Source: Gammaproteobacteria bacterium (GTDB taxonomy: Bacteria > Pseudomonadota > Gammaproteobacteria > Pseudomonadales > Azotimanducaceae). From it: a stretch of DNA of 64,000 bases. The position numbers were made by a program, and so were the translations under genes. The notes below the pieces were generated by a model. The model did no database searches and was not told where the DNA came from. It saw only the letters and a list, made by a program, of their open reading frames with translations. Below are positions 21,637 to 28,119 of this stretch, piece by piece. The stretch lies in NCBI GenBank assembly GCA_002690865.1, contig NZGG01000001.1, positions 36,686 to 100,685 of the forward strand, given 5' to 3'. Numbering within the stretch: position 1 is the stretch's first letter; the number at the start of each line of letters is the position of its first letter.

Positions 21637-22203
21637 TTAGGCTTTTGGCAAAGTTACGCCAGTTTGGCCTTGGTATTTACCCCCACGATCCGCGTACGAT
21701 GTTTCGCATATCTCATCTGATTCAAAAAAAAGCATTTGTGCCACGCCTTCATTGGAATAAATTTTTGCTGGTAGAGTAGTGGTATTCGAAAACTCTAGGG
21801 TTACATGGCCCTCCCACTCTGGCTCAAGTGGCGTAACATTCACTATGATACCACACCGAGCATACGTAGATTTACCCAGACATATAGTAAGTATACTTCT
21901 TGGAATACGGAAGAACTCCACAGTACGCGCCAATGCAAATGAGTTTGGCGGGATAACACATACATCACCCTTATAATCAACAAAACTCTTTGCATCAAAG
22001 GCCTTTGGATCCACCACTGCCGAATGAATATTCGTGAAGACCTTAAATTCATCTGAACACCTAACGTCATATCCGTAACTCGAAGTGCCATAGGAAATTA
22101 CTCGTCGATTTTCATTTTGACTAACCTGTTCAGGTTCGAAAGGCTCGATCAAGCCATATTCGACGGCCATACGGCGTATCCATTTGTCTGACTTAATCGC
22201 CAC
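21637..22203 (-). CDS. dcd: dCTP deaminase
   Basis: Trimeric enzyme that deaminates dCTP to dUTP. Signatures are [50 protein letters not shown] and [18 protein letters not shown]. The sequence closely follows the Pseudomonas-type Dcd, which begins [13 protein letters not shown] and has 188 residues. I therefore prefer GTG 22203 ([13 protein letters not shown]) over the track ATG at 22269, which would add 22 unusual residues; no strong Shine-Dalgarno decides. It follows mrp on the same strand. Confidence 0.9.
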
Positions 22204-22269
22204 AGTATGGGATGCTCTTGATTGATTGGTTTCATTTTCTTGCGCGAATTCGTTAATACGTCGCTGCAT

Positions 22270-23094
22270 TTAGTCATCTATAATATCAATTTCCGGATCA
22301 CTTGACACTAAGCCCGCGAGCAAACACATCAACTTTCTAGCTGCAAAACACAGTGATTTTGATATTTTGCTGTCTGGATCAGACACTACAATTGGTATTC
22401 CCCTATCAGACTGCTGACGAATAGAGAGCGCTAGCGGCAACTGTGCTAAAACTTCAGTTTCATATTCCAGTGCAACATGTTCACCACCATTGCTACCGAA
22501 TATTGCCTCCTCGTGTCCACAGTTACAACAGATATGAGTGCTCATATTCTCAATAATACCAAGTGTTGGCACTTCGACTTTAGTAAACATCTCCATCGCT
22601 TTCCGGGCATCCAACAATGCAATATCCTGAGGTGTAGTGACAATCACAGCTCCACTAAGAGGTACACGTTGAGAAAGGGTTAGTTGAATATCACCGGTCC
22701 CAGGCGGCATATCGATAAGTAAAATGTCCAGATCTCCCCACTCTGTATCCATTAATAACTGCTGCAAGGCACCACTAGCCATAGGTCCTCGCCAGATGGC
22801 CGGAGTATTTAAAGACATCAGGAAACCCATAGACATGCACTTTACGCCATGTGCTGTCACCGGCATTAATTGTTTGCCTCTCAATTCTGGCTTGATTTCT
22901 GAAACACCCATCATATGACATTGACTAGGGCCATAGATATCTGCATCTAACAAACCCACATTATGACCACTATTCGCAAGAGCTATAGCGAGATTTGCTG
23001 CGACAGTAGACTTCCCTACGCCACCTTTTCCAGAAGCGACCGCGACAATTTCAATGATTCCCGGTAGTTCTAATTTTTGTATGGTTTTACTAAT
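22270..23094 (-). CDS. mrp: Iron-sulfur cluster carrier protein Mrp/ApbC, short form with AUU start
   Basis: P-loop NTPase that carries and delivers [4Fe-4S] clusters. The Walker A is VAVASGKGGVGKSTVAANLA, then GLLDADIYGPSQ, LIDMPPGTGDIQL and the cluster-binding CxxC in ENMSTHICCNCGHEEAIFG. The ORF track starts at GTG 22959, which would delete Walker A. In frame upstream there is no ATG, GTG or TTG before a TAG; the frame opens at ATT 23094 (ISKTIQKLELPG), five bases after a perfect AGGAGG. I take ATT as the start: 274 residues. The N-terminal DUF59/MIP18 domain found in E. coli Mrp (~369 residues) is absent. Downstream is dcd; metG is divergent, as in pseudomonads. Confidence 0.88.
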   Translation of the reverse strand: MSKTIQKLELPGIIEIVAVASGKGGVGKSTVAANLAIALANSGHNVGLLDADIYGPSQCHMMGVSEIKPELRGKQLMPVTAHGVKCMSMGFLMSLNTPAIWRGPMASGALQQLLMDTEWGDLDILLIDMPPGTGDIQLTLSQRVPLSGAVIVTTPQDIALLDARKAMEMFTKVEVPTLGIIENMSTHICCNCGHEEAIFGSNGGEHVALEYETEVLAQLPLALSIRQQSDRGIPIVVSDPDSKISKSLCFAARKLMCLLAGLVSSDPEIDIIDD

Positions 23095-23105
23095 ATTTTC
23101 CTCCT
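23092..23105 (-). promoter_or_regulatory. Shine-Dalgarno plus AUU start of mrp
   Basis: On the minus strand the sequence reads AGGAGG-aaaat-ATT. The six-base Shine-Dalgarno is a perfect match to the anti-SD core and the 5-nt spacer is near optimal. An in-frame TAG overlaps the start of the Shine-Dalgarno, so translation cannot enter this frame from further upstream. Confidence 0.75.
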
Positions 23106-23122
23106 ATTGATTATCATTAATA
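23104..23122. promoter_or_regulatory. Fur-box-like sequence upstream of mrp
   Basis: The minus strand reads ATTAATGATAATCAATAG, matching about 15 of 18 positions of the E. coli Fur consensus GATAATGATAATCATTATC, including an unbroken TAATGATAATCA core. It lies immediately upstream of the mrp Shine-Dalgarno, where binding would block mrp-dcd expression. Iron control of a cluster carrier is plausible; this is inference from sequence likeness. Confidence 0.45.
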
Positions 23123-23250
23123 GAGTCACACTATGCTCGCTGAAGGTCAACTTCGGATGATAGAAATAAACTCCGAATTTATTATTCGTAAGAAAATATC
23201 TTGAACACTGGTAGACCAGAAAATATAGTTATCATTCCGAAAAGGTCGTT

Positions 23251-25266
23251 GTGAATATGGAAACGAGAAGAATACTGGTAACAAGTGCTTTACCGAATGC
23301 TAACGGCTCCATTCATCTTGGGCATCTAATGGAACATATTCAAACCGACATATGGGTTCGCTTTCAGCGTTCTGTTGGGAATGAGTGTATTTACGTCTGT
23401 GCAGATGACGCACACGGCACTGCCATTATGCTCAGAGCCGATGAAAAAGGCATTTCCCCTGAAACCTTGATAGAAGAGATTAGATCAGAGCATACAAAAG
23501 ATTTCTCAGACTTTTTGATAAGTCACGATAACTACTACACAACTCATTCGGAAGAAAATAAACAATATGCCAACTTTATTTTCGAAAGGCTCAAAGCAAA
23601 TGGGCAAATTGAGGTGCGGTCTGTCGCACAGCTCTACGATCCACAAAAGAAGATGTTTCTAGCTGATCGGTTTATAGTTGGTATCTGCCCACGCTGCAAA
23701 GCAAATGATCAATATGGTGATAACTGCGAAAATTGTGGAGCAACATACGATGCTACCGACCTTATTAATCCTCGATCAAAACTATCAGGCGAGAAACCTA
23801 TATTAAAAGAATCAACCCACTTTTTTTTCACCTTATCCCAATTCGATGACTTCTTACGCAAATGGACTAAGAGTGGGACACTACAGGAACAAATTGCAAA
23901 TAAACTAGCGGAATGGCTAGATTCAGGACTTCAGGATTGGGATATTAGTCGTGATGCACCTTATTTTGGATTTGAAATCCCTGATGCTCCCGGGAAGTAT
24001 TTCTACGTTTGGTTGGACGCACCAATAGGTTATCTAGCAAGCTTCAAACATTATTGTGATCTCAAAAGTCTAGACTTTACCGACTTTTGGGCAACTAACT
24101 CTAGATGTGAGGTACATCACTTCATAGGTAAAGATATAGTCAATTTCCACGCATTATTTTGGCCGGCGATGCTAAAGGCTGCTGACTTTCGAACACCAAC
24201 AAAAATTCACGCGCACGGCTTCGTCACTGTTAACGGCCACAAAATGTCAAAATCACGTGGTACGTTCATTAATGCAAGAACTTACCTAAATCACCTAAAC
24301 CCAGAATATCTTCGCTATTATTTCGCTGCAAAGATAAATGGTAATGTCGATGATCTTGATATTTCTTTAGAGGATTTCGTTCAACGAGTAAATTCAGACC
24401 TTGTCGGTAAGGTAATCAATATTGCGAGCCGATGTGCAGGTTTCATAAATAAACAGTTCGATGGAAAACTATCGGAACACGTTAGCACCGCTCTAGTCGA
24501 ATCATCGATCGCTAAGGGCAAGCAAATAGCAAGTTTCTACGAGGCGGGAGATTATAGTAAAGCTGTACGTGAAATCATGTCATTAGCAGATCAAGCAAAC
24601 CGATACATAGATGAGCAAAAACCTTGGATTATGATAAAGGAACCAGATCATCGGGAAAAAGTACAACAGGTTTGTTCTGATGGGATCAATTTGTTCAGAA
24701 TCATCATGATCTATCTGCAGCCAGTTATCCCTTCCCTTGCAAAAAAAGCGGAAACGTTCCTAGGTGTTGACGAATTAAACTGGACATCATGTCAAAATAT
24801 ACTAGTCGATCATCAAATTAATCCATTCACACCGCTACTAACTCGTATTGAGATGACTGCCATAGACGCAATAGTTGAAACTAGCCGAGCCGAATCTAAT
24901 AACGCGAATGAAGATGTTCAAGAAAATAAAAATGTAATAGAAACGATAAAATATGAAGATTTTGCCAAGCTGGACTTGCGTGTTGCTCGCATATTAAAAG
25001 CTGAGTCTATCCCGGAAGCAAATAAACTCCTCCGACTAACCTTAGACCTTGGTGAAGAGCAGCGTATAATATTCGCAGGCATAAAATCGGCTTATACAAC
25101 TGATGACCTTATAGGTAAATTAACTATTCTAGTGGCAAATCTAGAGCCTAGAAAGATGCGTTTTGGAATATCCGAAGGTATGGTCCTTGCGGCTGGGAAT
25201 GGTGATCAAGAGATTTTTCTGCTAGAGCCTGATCCCGGTGCCGCACCAGGTATGCAAGTTACCTAG
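23251..25266 (+). CDS. metG: Methionyl-tRNA synthetase
   Basis: 671-residue class I synthetase. HIGH-type motif HLGHLMEH ([20 protein letters not shown]), zinc knuckle [24 protein letters not shown] motif [11 protein letters not shown], and a C-terminal EMAP/Trbp tRNA-binding domain ([40 protein letters not shown]) that promotes dimerisation. The track start GTG 23251 has AAAGG five bases upstream; ATG 23257 two codons later is the alternative. It is divergent from mrp and followed 4 nt later by rsxA. Confidence 0.96.
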
Positions 25267-25270
25267 ACGC

Positions 25271-25846
25271 GTGAATGAAGCGGTAGCAATATTACTGACG
25301 ACAATATTCGTCAACAACTTCGTTACAATCCAATTTCTTGGAATTCGTCCTCTGCTTGGAGCAAGTCAAAAAATCGATAGCGCCACTGGAATGATGTTCG
25401 CAACGACTTTTGTTCTAACACTCGCATCTGCGGCAAGCTTTACAGTTGAAAGCTACATCCTTAGACCCCTCGATTTGCAATACCTGCGTATTATCGTTCT
25501 CATAATAATAATTGCATCTCTGGTACAATTTTTCGAACTTATTATCCGGACTACACACCCCCGACTGCACGCGATGCTAGTGACATTTGTTCCCCTAATA
25601 ACCACAAATTGCGCTGTGCTAGGAGTTGCCTTGATTAATATCAGGGAAACTAATTCATTTATAAATTCCGTTGTTTTTGGCTTTGGCGCAGCGATTGGTT
25701 ATTCCCTAGTATTAATAATATTTACAGCCATCCAAGGACAGCAAAGGAACAGCGCCATACCTAGGGTATTTCGAGGCGCTGCAATTAGTATGATTACAGC
25801 AGGTTTATTATCTCTAGCTTTCATGGGATTTACAGGAATAAGCTAA
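25271..25846 (+). CDS. rsxA: Electron transport complex subunit RsxA/RnfA
   Basis: Six-helix inner-membrane subunit of the Rnf/Rsx complex, with the family strings VNNFVTIQFLGIRPLLG, ATTFVLTLASAASF, FVPLITTNCAVLGVALINI, FGFGAAIGYSLVLIIF, RGAAISMITAGLLSLAFMGF. The conserved TTNCAVLG cysteine is kept. The ORF track start (25238) lies inside metG; GTG 25271 (VNEAVAILLTTIFVNNF) is the position of the usual family start and gives 191 residues. Its stop overlaps the start of the decayed rsxB (TAATG). Confidence 0.9.
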   Translation: MNEAVAILLTTIFVNNFVTIQFLGIRPLLGASQKIDSATGMMFATTFVLTLASAASFTVESYILRPLDLQYLRIIVLIIIIASLVQFFELIIRTTHPRLHAMLVTFVPLITTNCAVLGVALINIRETNSFINSVVFGFGAAIGYSLVLIIFTAIQGQQRNSAIPRVFRGAAISMITAGLLSLAFMGFTGIS

Positions 25847-25999
25847 TGATTATAGAGATCTTGGTGTCCACATTAGCTGGATTACTATGCACCAATCAAC
25901 CAATGTTCGCTAGGCAGCGCAAATACTATCGCTTCCCTCGCAAGCATTAATACGTATGGAGAAGTCATAAATATACTTGAAAGGTACTTGACCAACTAA
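25846..25999 (+). pseudogene. rsxB: Decayed remnant of rsxB (rsxC entirely absent)
   Basis: Between rsxA and rsxD, where rsxB and rsxC (about 2.5-3 kb) are expected, there are only 199 nt. An ATG overlaps the rsxA stop exactly as expected for rsxB and begins a hydrophobic stretch (MIIEILVSTLAGLLC) that resembles the RsxB N-terminal anchor, but the frame ends after 34 codons. In another frame, from ~25892, PINQCSLGSANTIASLASI resembles the RsxB segment INxCxPGGxATIxALAxL that follows its first Fe-S cluster. The cluster cysteines themselves and all of rsxC are gone. Identification is by position plus these short likenesses. Confidence 0.55.
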
Positions 26000-26045
26000 A
26001 AGATAGTGCAGCTCTGGTAGCCTATTTAAAAACCTAAACATAGAA

Positions 26046-26987
26046 ATGAAAAGATCTCAGACCAATCGAATAATGTATGAATTTAATTTAGCTCTCGTTC
26101 CGGGGTGCTTAGTAATGATTTATATTTTTGGTTTTGGGGTATTAATCAATGTTACAACTGTGGTCGCTACTGTTGTGCTCTGCGAATATCTTGTATTCAA
26201 AGTAAGAGCGCTACCTAAAAGAAATATTCTAGACGGAAGCGCTGTTGCAACAGGTCTTTTACTCGGCTTAACTCTGCCACCGCTGCTCCCTACCTGGATG
26301 GTTATACTTGGGAGTATCTTTTCAATTCTTATAGTTAAACATGCCTACGGAGGACTAGGGAATAACCTATTTAATCCAGCGATGGCCGGTTTTGCAGTGC
26401 TCGTTGTTTCGTTTCCCATGGCTATGTCTAAATGGAGTGCACCCTTCGTAGATATGAACTTAGCAAAAACTCTAGAAATCAAGATAGGAAGCCCAAAAAT
26501 AGATGGAACCACAAGTGCTACGCCACTTGACGAATTCAAGTTTCGTGAGAAAGTAACGACCGAAGAATATTGGGATCCTAATAGGACCAAAAACTGGAGG
26601 GTATGGGCCTTAATTAATTTAGTTTACTTATTGTCAGGAGCGTATCTCCTATATAAGGGACTTTGCAAATGGCATGCTCCAATTGCCATGTTGAGCACGC
26701 TTACTTTGCTATCTACTATTTTCTATGATGGGGGAAGTTCCGCTAGCCTTGGCTCTCCACTATTTCATTTATTCTCGGGGGCTACAATGCTCGGCGCATT
26801 TTTTATTCTCTCTGACCCAGTCACGTCTCCTAACACATCCGTGGGTCAAATAATCTTTGGGATTGGAATCGCTATTTTGACGTTCTCTATTAGGACAATT
26901 GGAGCCTATCCAGAAGGGATAGCGTTCGCTGTGTTGCTAATGAATGGAGCAACGCCACTAATCAACTACTTAGTGCTCCATAAATGA
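26046..26987 (+). CDS. rsxD: Electron transport complex subunit RsxD/RnfD
   Basis: 313-residue membrane subunit (NqrB homologue) with about eight helices. Family motifs: GSAVATGLLLGLTLPPLLPTWM, HAYGGLGNNLFNPAMAGF and the covalent-FMN site TSATPLD (Thr159). Near the C-terminus HLFSGATMLGAFFILSDPVTSP is typical. The flavinylation site looks functional, although rsxB and rsxC have been lost. Stop overlaps rsxG (ATGA). Confidence 0.92.
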   Translation: MKRSQTNRIMYEFNLALVPGCLVMIYIFGFGVLINVTTVVATVVLCEYLVFKVRALPKRNILDGSAVATGLLLGLTLPPLLPTWMVILGSIFSILIVKHAYGGLGNNLFNPAMAGFAVLVVSFPMAMSKWSAPFVDMNLAKTLEIKIGSPKIDGTTSATPLDEFKFREKVTTEEYWDPNRTKNWRVWALINLVYLLSGAYLLYKGLCKWHAPIAMLSTLTLLSTIFYDGGSSASLGSPLFHLFSGATMLGAFFILSDPVTSPNTSVGQIIFGIGIAILTFSIRTIGAYPEGIAFAVLLMNGATPLINYLVLHK

Positions 26988-27493
26988 GTCTCAAACTATT
27001 TACGTTTGTGGTACTCACACTAATATGTGGTATCAGTATTACTGGCTTACACACATTTAAAAGTGAACAAATCGAATATAATCGCAAAGAGTTCGCTCTA
27101 AGAACAATAAAACAACTAGTTAACCAAAAGCAGTTTTCATTAGTTCAAATTAATGACGAAAGATATGCCATAAAGTATCAAAATGCCTATGATGGAGCAG
27201 TATTTAAAATTAGGACGCCATCCGGATACAACGGTGAAATTATCCTATGGATTGCGACGAATAGCGCAGGATACATTCGAGGTGTTCGAGTTTTAGAACA
27301 TAAAGAAACATCTGGGATTGGCGATCTGATTGATATTGAAGTGTCGGACTGGATACATCAATTCATTGGGATGTCACTTAAAAATAATTGGACATATGAT
27401 AATTCAGATATTGACCACGTATCAGGAGCCACAATTACGACTCGCGCCGTTACAAAAGCAGTTTTCGATGCACTAAAAGTAGAGACCGAATGA
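26984..27493 (+). CDS. rsxG: Electron transport complex subunit RsxG/RnfG
   Basis: 169 residues: one N-terminal membrane anchor (LFTFVVLTLICGISITGL) and a periplasmic FMN-binding domain. The flavinylation motif DHVSGATITT (Thr150) and GYIRGVRVLEHKETSGIGD are intact. FMN would be attached by ApbE, which is not in this window. Shorter than E. coli RsxG (~206). Overlaps rsxD and rsxE by ATGA. Confidence 0.92.
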   Translation: MSLKLFTFVVLTLICGISITGLHTFKSEQIEYNRKEFALRTIKQLVNQKQFSLVQINDERYAIKYQNAYDGAVFKIRTPSGYNGEIILWIATNSAGYIRGVRVLEHKETSGIGDLIDIEVSDWIHQFIGMSLKNNWTYDNSDIDHVSGATITTRAVTKAVFDALKVETE

Positions 27494-28119
27494 ACAGATT
27501 TTCACAGATAGCTTGCGATGGAATTTGGCGCCAGAATCCAGTACTCGTCCAATTACTTGGCTTATGTCCACTACTTGCAGTTTCAACGTCCTTCGTGACC
27601 GCATTCAGTCTCGGGGTAATTACGCTATTTGTATTAACAGCTTCTAATATTGTTATCAGTATAATTCGTTTACTGCTGCATGATGCAATGAGAATGCCCA
27701 CGCAAATTATCGTCATAGCCACTTTCGTTACCCTCTCAGATATTGTTTTGCAAGCCTGGTACTTCGAGTTACATCACCGAATCGGGCTCTTTCTTGCTTT
27801 GATATTTACGAACTGCACTTTACTTGGTAGAGCTGAAATTTTTACTACCCGCAACCCTATTGCTAATTCTGCATTAGATGGTTTTATGATGGGCTTAGGA
27901 TTTCTCTGGGTACTAGTTTTAATGGGATCAATTCGCGAAACTCTTGGTTCTGGAACTTTATTTAGTAATATGCACCTGCTTCTTGGACCAATTGGTGAAA
28001 ACCTCGAGATCACTTTTAGTACTAAGGGTTTTTTACTTCTTGTGTTACCACCAGGAGCCTTCATCACGCTCGGTTTACTCATCGCCTCGAAAAATTATTT
28101 ATTTAACAATCAGGAATAA
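27490..28119 (+). CDS. rsxE: Electron transport complex subunit RsxE/RnfE
   Basis: 209-residue, six-helix membrane subunit paralogous to RsxA. Signatures: NPVLVQLLGLCPLLAVSTS, IFTNCTLLGRAEIFTTRNPIANSALDGFMMGLGF, GSIRETLGSGTLF and LVLPPGAFITLGLLIA. The TNCTLLGRAE cysteine is conserved. Followed directly by nth, as in the E. coli rsx-nth operon. Confidence 0.93.
   Translation: MNRFSQIACDGIWRQNPVLVQLLGLCPLLAVSTSFVTAFSLGVITLFVLTASNIVISIIRLLLHDAMRMPTQIIVIATFVTLSDIVLQAWYFELHHRIGLFLALIFTNCTLLGRAEIFTTRNPIANSALDGFMMGLGFLWVLVLMGSIRETLGSGTLFSNMHLLLGPIGENLEITFSTKGFLLLVLPPGAFITLGLLIASKNYLFNNQE

Follow-up and report, generated by a model that had tools for sequence, protein, structure and literature searches.

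The mrp (apbC) gene, encoding an Fe-S cluster carrier P-loop ATPase, very likely starts at an AUU codon behind a strong Shine-Dalgarno (SD) sequence, and comparison with related loci indicates that this start has been maintained. The locus lies in a stretch of 64,000 nucleotides from a gammaproteobacterium, which is called the window here. The use of AUU by mrp, which the initial annotation had proposed, was strongly supported by a conserved AUU/AUC/AUA (AUH) site, a conserved SD, the onset of codon periodicity, and an ATG that other relatives have in the corresponding position. The AUU start is about as firm as sequence comparison permits.

The mrp locus and its product

The mrp leader reads, 5' to 3' on the minus strand, ...AATCAAT AGGAGG AAAAT ATT AGT AAA ACC ATA... 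(Table 1). The SD, the 5-nt spacer, the ATT and an open frame through GKGGVGKS were all found where the initial annotation had placed them. The frame was open from the TAG at 23106-23104 through the TAA at 22272-22270, and a start further upstream of the SD was excluded because this TAG is in frame. Between the TAG and the P-loop the codons were GAG GAA AAT ATT AGT AAA ACC ATA CAA AAA TTA GAA CTA CCG GGA ATC ATT GAA ATT GTC GCG GTC GCT TCT. All of them were read, and none was ATG, GTG, TTG or CTG. This bears out the earlier statements that the TAG overlaps the SD and that no ATG, GTG or TTG precedes the GTG at 22959, and it adds CTG to the codons absent before the P-loop. Standard gene callers would choose that GTG, likely an automatic miscall, and a call from it loses the Walker A motif. 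The motif AGGAGG-N5-ATT occurred exactly twice in the whole window and is therefore weak evidence by itself; the weight for an AUU start comes from the gene context, since mrp and infC alone among 1,890 coding ORFs genome-wide join an SD score of at least 5 to an ATH codon and coding signal upstream of the first canonical start. A promoter scan of positions 23000-23300 gave no site on the mrp strand.

Table 1. Features at and around the mrp start, in window coordinates.
Feature	Position	Strand	Remarks
mrp/apbC coding sequence	22270-23094	-	274 codons + stop; Fe-S cluster carrier P-loop ATPase; PF10609, NF008669, 8zkc
mrp start codon ATT (AUU)	23094-23092	-	homologous ATT/ATC/ATA in 26 clear loci, window's included; ATG there in L053/L263
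Spacer AAAAT, SD to start codon	23099-23095	-	
SD AGGAGG	23105-23100	-	5 nt before ATT; GGAG/GAGG kept in 29/30 AUH loci
In-frame stop TAG	23106-23104	-	overlaps SD (shared bases)
Walker A motif GKGGVGKS	23031-23008	-	
GTG, first canonical in-frame start codon of mrp	22959-22957	-	inside ATPase domain, past the P-loop
Small out-of-frame ORF, ATG..TAG, 15 codons	23070-23117	-	ATG ATA ATC AAT AGG AGG ...; overlaps mrp start; unconserved in most relatives
metG (methionyl-tRNA synthetase)	23257-25266	+	Pfam tRNA-synt_1g; divergent, 162 nt upstream of mrp start; arrangement conserved
dcd (dCTP deaminase-like)	21637-22269	-	Pfam DCD

The predicted protein matched Pfam PF10609 (331 bits), with the GKGGVGKS of the P-loop ATPase domain present, and the NCBIfam equivalog ApbC NF008669 (351 bits, cut-off 348). 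The closest structure was the solved Fe-S carrier PDB 8zkc (1.9e-87), with the alignment beginning at chain residue 134. The window Mrp resembles the Mrp/ApbC/Nbp35 Fe-S carrier ATPases (8zkc) in its P-loop, Cys pair and full ATPase domain; it differs from the 8zkc chain in being without the N-terminal region of about 120 residues, its start lying 21 codons ahead of the P-loop. The Cys pair (CxxC), C192 and C195, was invariant between the window Mrp and two genus relatives, and the same pair was invariant in 31 loci, as was the Walker A motif among the loci compared. The ATPase domain alone was detected in the window Mrp, with no N-terminal DUF59/MIP18 domain found. That domain is present in E. 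coli Mrp and is not universal across the Mrp/ApbC family. In other genera of the family, Mrp open frames were long enough for the N-terminal region missing in the window clade, and on the Mrp tree the loss of this domain coincides in location with the AUH start.

Downstream, the ATG of dcd directly abuts the mrp stop codon (TAAATG) with no evident SD, so that dcd may be translationally coupled to mrp by termination-reinitiation in this species. Such coupling was rejected as a general reason for the weak mrp start: the abutting arrangement is not kept in other genera, and most members of genus g24 carry dcd on the opposite strand. Elsewhere in the window, an Rnf-type cluster (25238-28119) held rnfA-, rnfD-, rnfG- and rnfE-like ORFs with no rnfB or rnfC between them. 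In the genome as a whole, which is 99% complete, no match to rnfB or rnfC exceeded the cut-off.

Conservation and evolution of the start codon

Orthologues of mrp were gathered by searching relatives and 201 genomes of the family, and their 5' ends were read. In every locus where metG was found it was divergent and upstream of mrp, and the loci compared were therefore taken as orthologues. An AUH codon (ATT, ATC or ATA) was present at the homologous site in 26 clear loci including the window (17 ATC, 8 ATT and 1 ATA) and in 5 ambiguous ones. Comparison of the 5' regions, named at the outset as a check, thus placed ATT, ATC or ATA at the mrp start position in the window's own genus and in four further genera of its family (g1, g2, g9, g24 and g25 in all). 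The nearest relative (G005, 78% identity) had TAG GAG AAA AAC ATC GGT at this position, G003 and G001 had GGAGACAAATC ATC AGT AGT, G004 had AGGAGAAACAGGT ATC GCT, and G006 had GGAGAACGAAC ATC AGC. Genus g24 had GGAGATAGAAA followed by ATT or ATC and AGT AAT, genus g2 had GGAGAACGGAC followed by ATT TCT AAT, ATA GCC or ATC, and genus g9 had ATT AGT CAG and others. No ATG, GTG or TTG occurred from the stop to the P-loop in six species of three genera (the window, L004; L042 and L045; L043, L044 and L047).

The presence of ATG in relatives, also named at the outset as a check, was found in genus g22, where the homologous codon was either ATG AGT AAT (L053 and L263) or GTG TCA GAA; the ATG AGT AAT marks the homologous site as a start. 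ATG or GTG also served mrp in several nearby lineages (genera g20, g22, g28, g55 and part of g24), which can therefore do without the weak start. In genus g25, a GTG or ATG overlapping the SD is an alternative mrp start. The ATC of L012 is immediately followed by an ATG. Contig scans of other genomes yielded no family member with an AUH start, and the nearest named matches were Pseudomonadales and related gammaproteobacteria.

The SD was closely associated with the AUH codon, GGAG or GAGG being found at -16 to -7 in 29 of the 30 AUH loci compared with 11 of the 447 ATH codons (2.5%) that lie in frame inside these genes. In close pairs, mismatches at codon positions 1/2/3 numbered 24/28/21 upstream and 6/0/31 in codons 2-17 (chi-square p 9e-8, the pairs being partly non-independent); a set limited to a single pair from each sub-clade gave 5/0/23 for the downstream part. 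By this measure, codon periodicity begins exactly at the AUH codon, which is the mark of coding sequence.

In the Mrp tree, a supported branch (99/94) separated the short Mrp sequences, all AUH forms among them, from the long sequences. At least three changes between AUH and canonical starts, in either direction, were required on this tree, and at least seven changes between ATT, ATC and ATA among the AUH forms alone. Across at least five genera the third base of the codon was U, C or A and rarely G, with pyrimidines predominating. Avoidance of ATG at the mrp start is not claimed, because the third-base changes were mostly C/T transitions.

Three other accounts of the start site were weighed against initiation at AUU. 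That the protein begins at another near-cognate codon (ATA 23082-23080, which is in frame, TTA or CTA) or, in shorter form, at GTG 22959, the choice of a standard caller, is very unlikely: a correctly spaced SD precedes only the ATT at 23094, conservation and periodicity start there, and the GTG would delete the invariant Walker A motif. Nor is it any more credible that Mrp arises by frameshifting at AGG AGG from the small upstream ORF (23117-23070) instead of by AUU initiation. A shifted-frame ATG does lie just upstream in the window and in G005, the closest relative, its frame reading through AGG AGG or AGG AGA, but this ORF is absent from most other AUH loci, where the shifted frames stop and start at unrelated places; the upstream sequence has no codon periodicity, and AGG AGG is the SD itself. 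Finally, the genome is a 46-contig draft, in which faulty sequencing or assembly, or else a pseudogene, might be suspected. The chance of this is negligible, given that the same non-AUG start recurred in independent genomes of five genera and that the full-length ORF is under purifying selection, with zero second-position changes in codons 2-17 of close pairs. Initiation at the AUU, maintained as AUH among relatives, is the reading followed below.

Genome-wide survey of AUH starts

In the own genome, 2,418,918 of 2,419,185 bases, on all 46 contigs, were surveyed with codon-model scoring, giving 1,890 coding ORFs. To qualify, an ORF needed an SD score of 5 or more, a candidate codon situated 8 or more codons upstream of the first canonical start, and a coding score of 3 or higher for the stretch between the two. 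Only two ATH cases emerged, the ATT of mrp and the ATT of infC. The infC start lies behind AGAGGAG (GAGGAG-CAAGTGT-ATT), and in the relatives read its position was ATT or ATC; its recovery serves as an internal positive control that the survey finds genuine AUH starts. The mrp start resembles that of infC in the AUH codon behind a strong SD, the lack of a canonical alternative nearby and the conservation over long distances, but differs in that the AUH forms occupy only a single region of the Mrp tree, where ATG or GTG occurs in places. The gene pcnB was ruled out as a second AUU gene here, having an ATG start in this genus.

The other top ORFs without a canonical start, read individually, mostly resembled cases of selenocysteine TGA, genes with an interruption, artefacts from the opposite strand, or ordinary starts preceded by a spurious open frame. 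Three peroxiredoxin-like genes had TGA at the expected Cys (L189:18312-18641, L213:11857-12183 and L283:10298-10663, on own contigs C5, C6 and C25), in the contexts ..KAFTGG*TIECKALRDS, ..RASTPG*TIEGEGFRD and ..FYRGYW*PYCIRQLNGYN. A selB gene was present in the own genome (C5:18904-20781, 442 bits), near one of them, and the TGA-interrupted genes likely encode selenoproteins. A YaiI/DUF188-like gene (C25:152942-153448, equal to L286:12942-13448) seemed to begin, behind AGGAG, at CTG or else at an ATA beside it; its conserved IWVDADACP was preceded by no suitable ATG, GTG or TTG, and genus relatives aligned from the same residue. An xdhB-like frame of 783 codons, identified by eye (L237:16162-18513, C23), had no canonical start in its first 45 codons, and the CTG directly after its upstream TGA is a possible start.

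Possible control by IF3 and significance

The gene infC, with its AUU start, is the textbook case of autoregulation by IF3. Control of mrp by IF3 is a plausible and natural mechanism, by analogy with infC and with sigR (GTC start). In this genome the only other AUU/AUC start is that of infC, and IF3 may therefore govern how much Mrp is made. The product is an Fe-S carrier and not a translation factor, so that, unlike for infC, no obvious autoregulatory loop is apparent. In the proposed mechanism, the strong SD would draw the 30S subunit to the mrp leader, offsetting the weak codon, and the ordinary initiator tRNA (CAU) would pair imperfectly with the AUU. As on infC, IF3 would select against this complex; Mrp would then be made at a low rate, which would go up when free IF3 activity drops. 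In this species, with its ATG abutting the mrp stop, dcd would share part of this control. We consider it probable that mrp is translated from the AUU behind its strong SD, and plausible that IF3 discriminates against this start, in which case Mrp output would be low and would rise as free IF3 activity falls. The own IF3 closely matched full-length E. coli IF3, as expected of a normal IF3, and a pattern search for initiator tRNA gave one site, an ordinary CAU; a special initiator tRNA was rejected on this result.

IF3 is known to discriminate against initiator tRNA on AUU, and more IF3 gives less AUU/CAU initiation product in vitro (PMC10158994). In Streptomyces, sigR has a conserved GTC start and is repressed by IF3 (PMC5472188). 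The two genes are alike in combining an extensive conserved SD with a non-canonical start, which for sigR is kept across a genus; they differ in that the sigR codon is GTC rather than AUH, that sigR encodes a sigma factor rather than an Fe-S carrier, and that repression by IF3, established by experiment for sigR, is a proposal for mrp. In E. coli, the AUU start of pcnB is described as limiting translation, and expression is low (Binns and Masters 2002, as cited in PMC9410913). Like mrp, that pcnB is a non-translation gene with an AUU start; in the genus of the window it starts with ATG, and the second AUU gene is mrp.

The pcnB case is also the precedent for a competing explanation, that the AUU/AUC start of mrp is real and is a passive device for keeping Mrp scarce, with no physiological regulation by IF3. 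In its favour, several related genera have ATG or GTG, which shows that they can do without such control. Nevertheless, weak SDs or GUG and UUG could equally lower the rate, while here a strong SD and an AUH codon are kept together, as at infC, and switches from AUG to AUU are extremely rare elsewhere (1 of 61,358 AUG starts; PMC5622118). Passive scarcity is thus a possible but somewhat doubtful explanation, and discrimination by IF3 remains the preferred one.

Our literature searches found no AUU/AUC start for mrp, and to our knowledge very few such starts outside infC are well documented. It is plausible, by analogy, that mrp joins infC, pcnB and sigR as a gene with a non-canonical start of the IF3-discriminated sort. 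The case is of interest because such genes are so few and because a second, unrelated gene keeping an AUH start over several genera makes the question of an IF3 regulon directly testable. For annotation, automated gene calling in this clade can cut Mrp off past its Walker A motif, so that the protein looks inactive or is wrongly recorded as absent. More tentatively, the family might have a small IF3 regulon beyond infC, in which mrp, with dcd added by coupling in this species, would tie Fe-S delivery to the balance of free IF3 and 30S subunits. If so, the maturation of Fe-S proteins would respond to translation-initiation stress.
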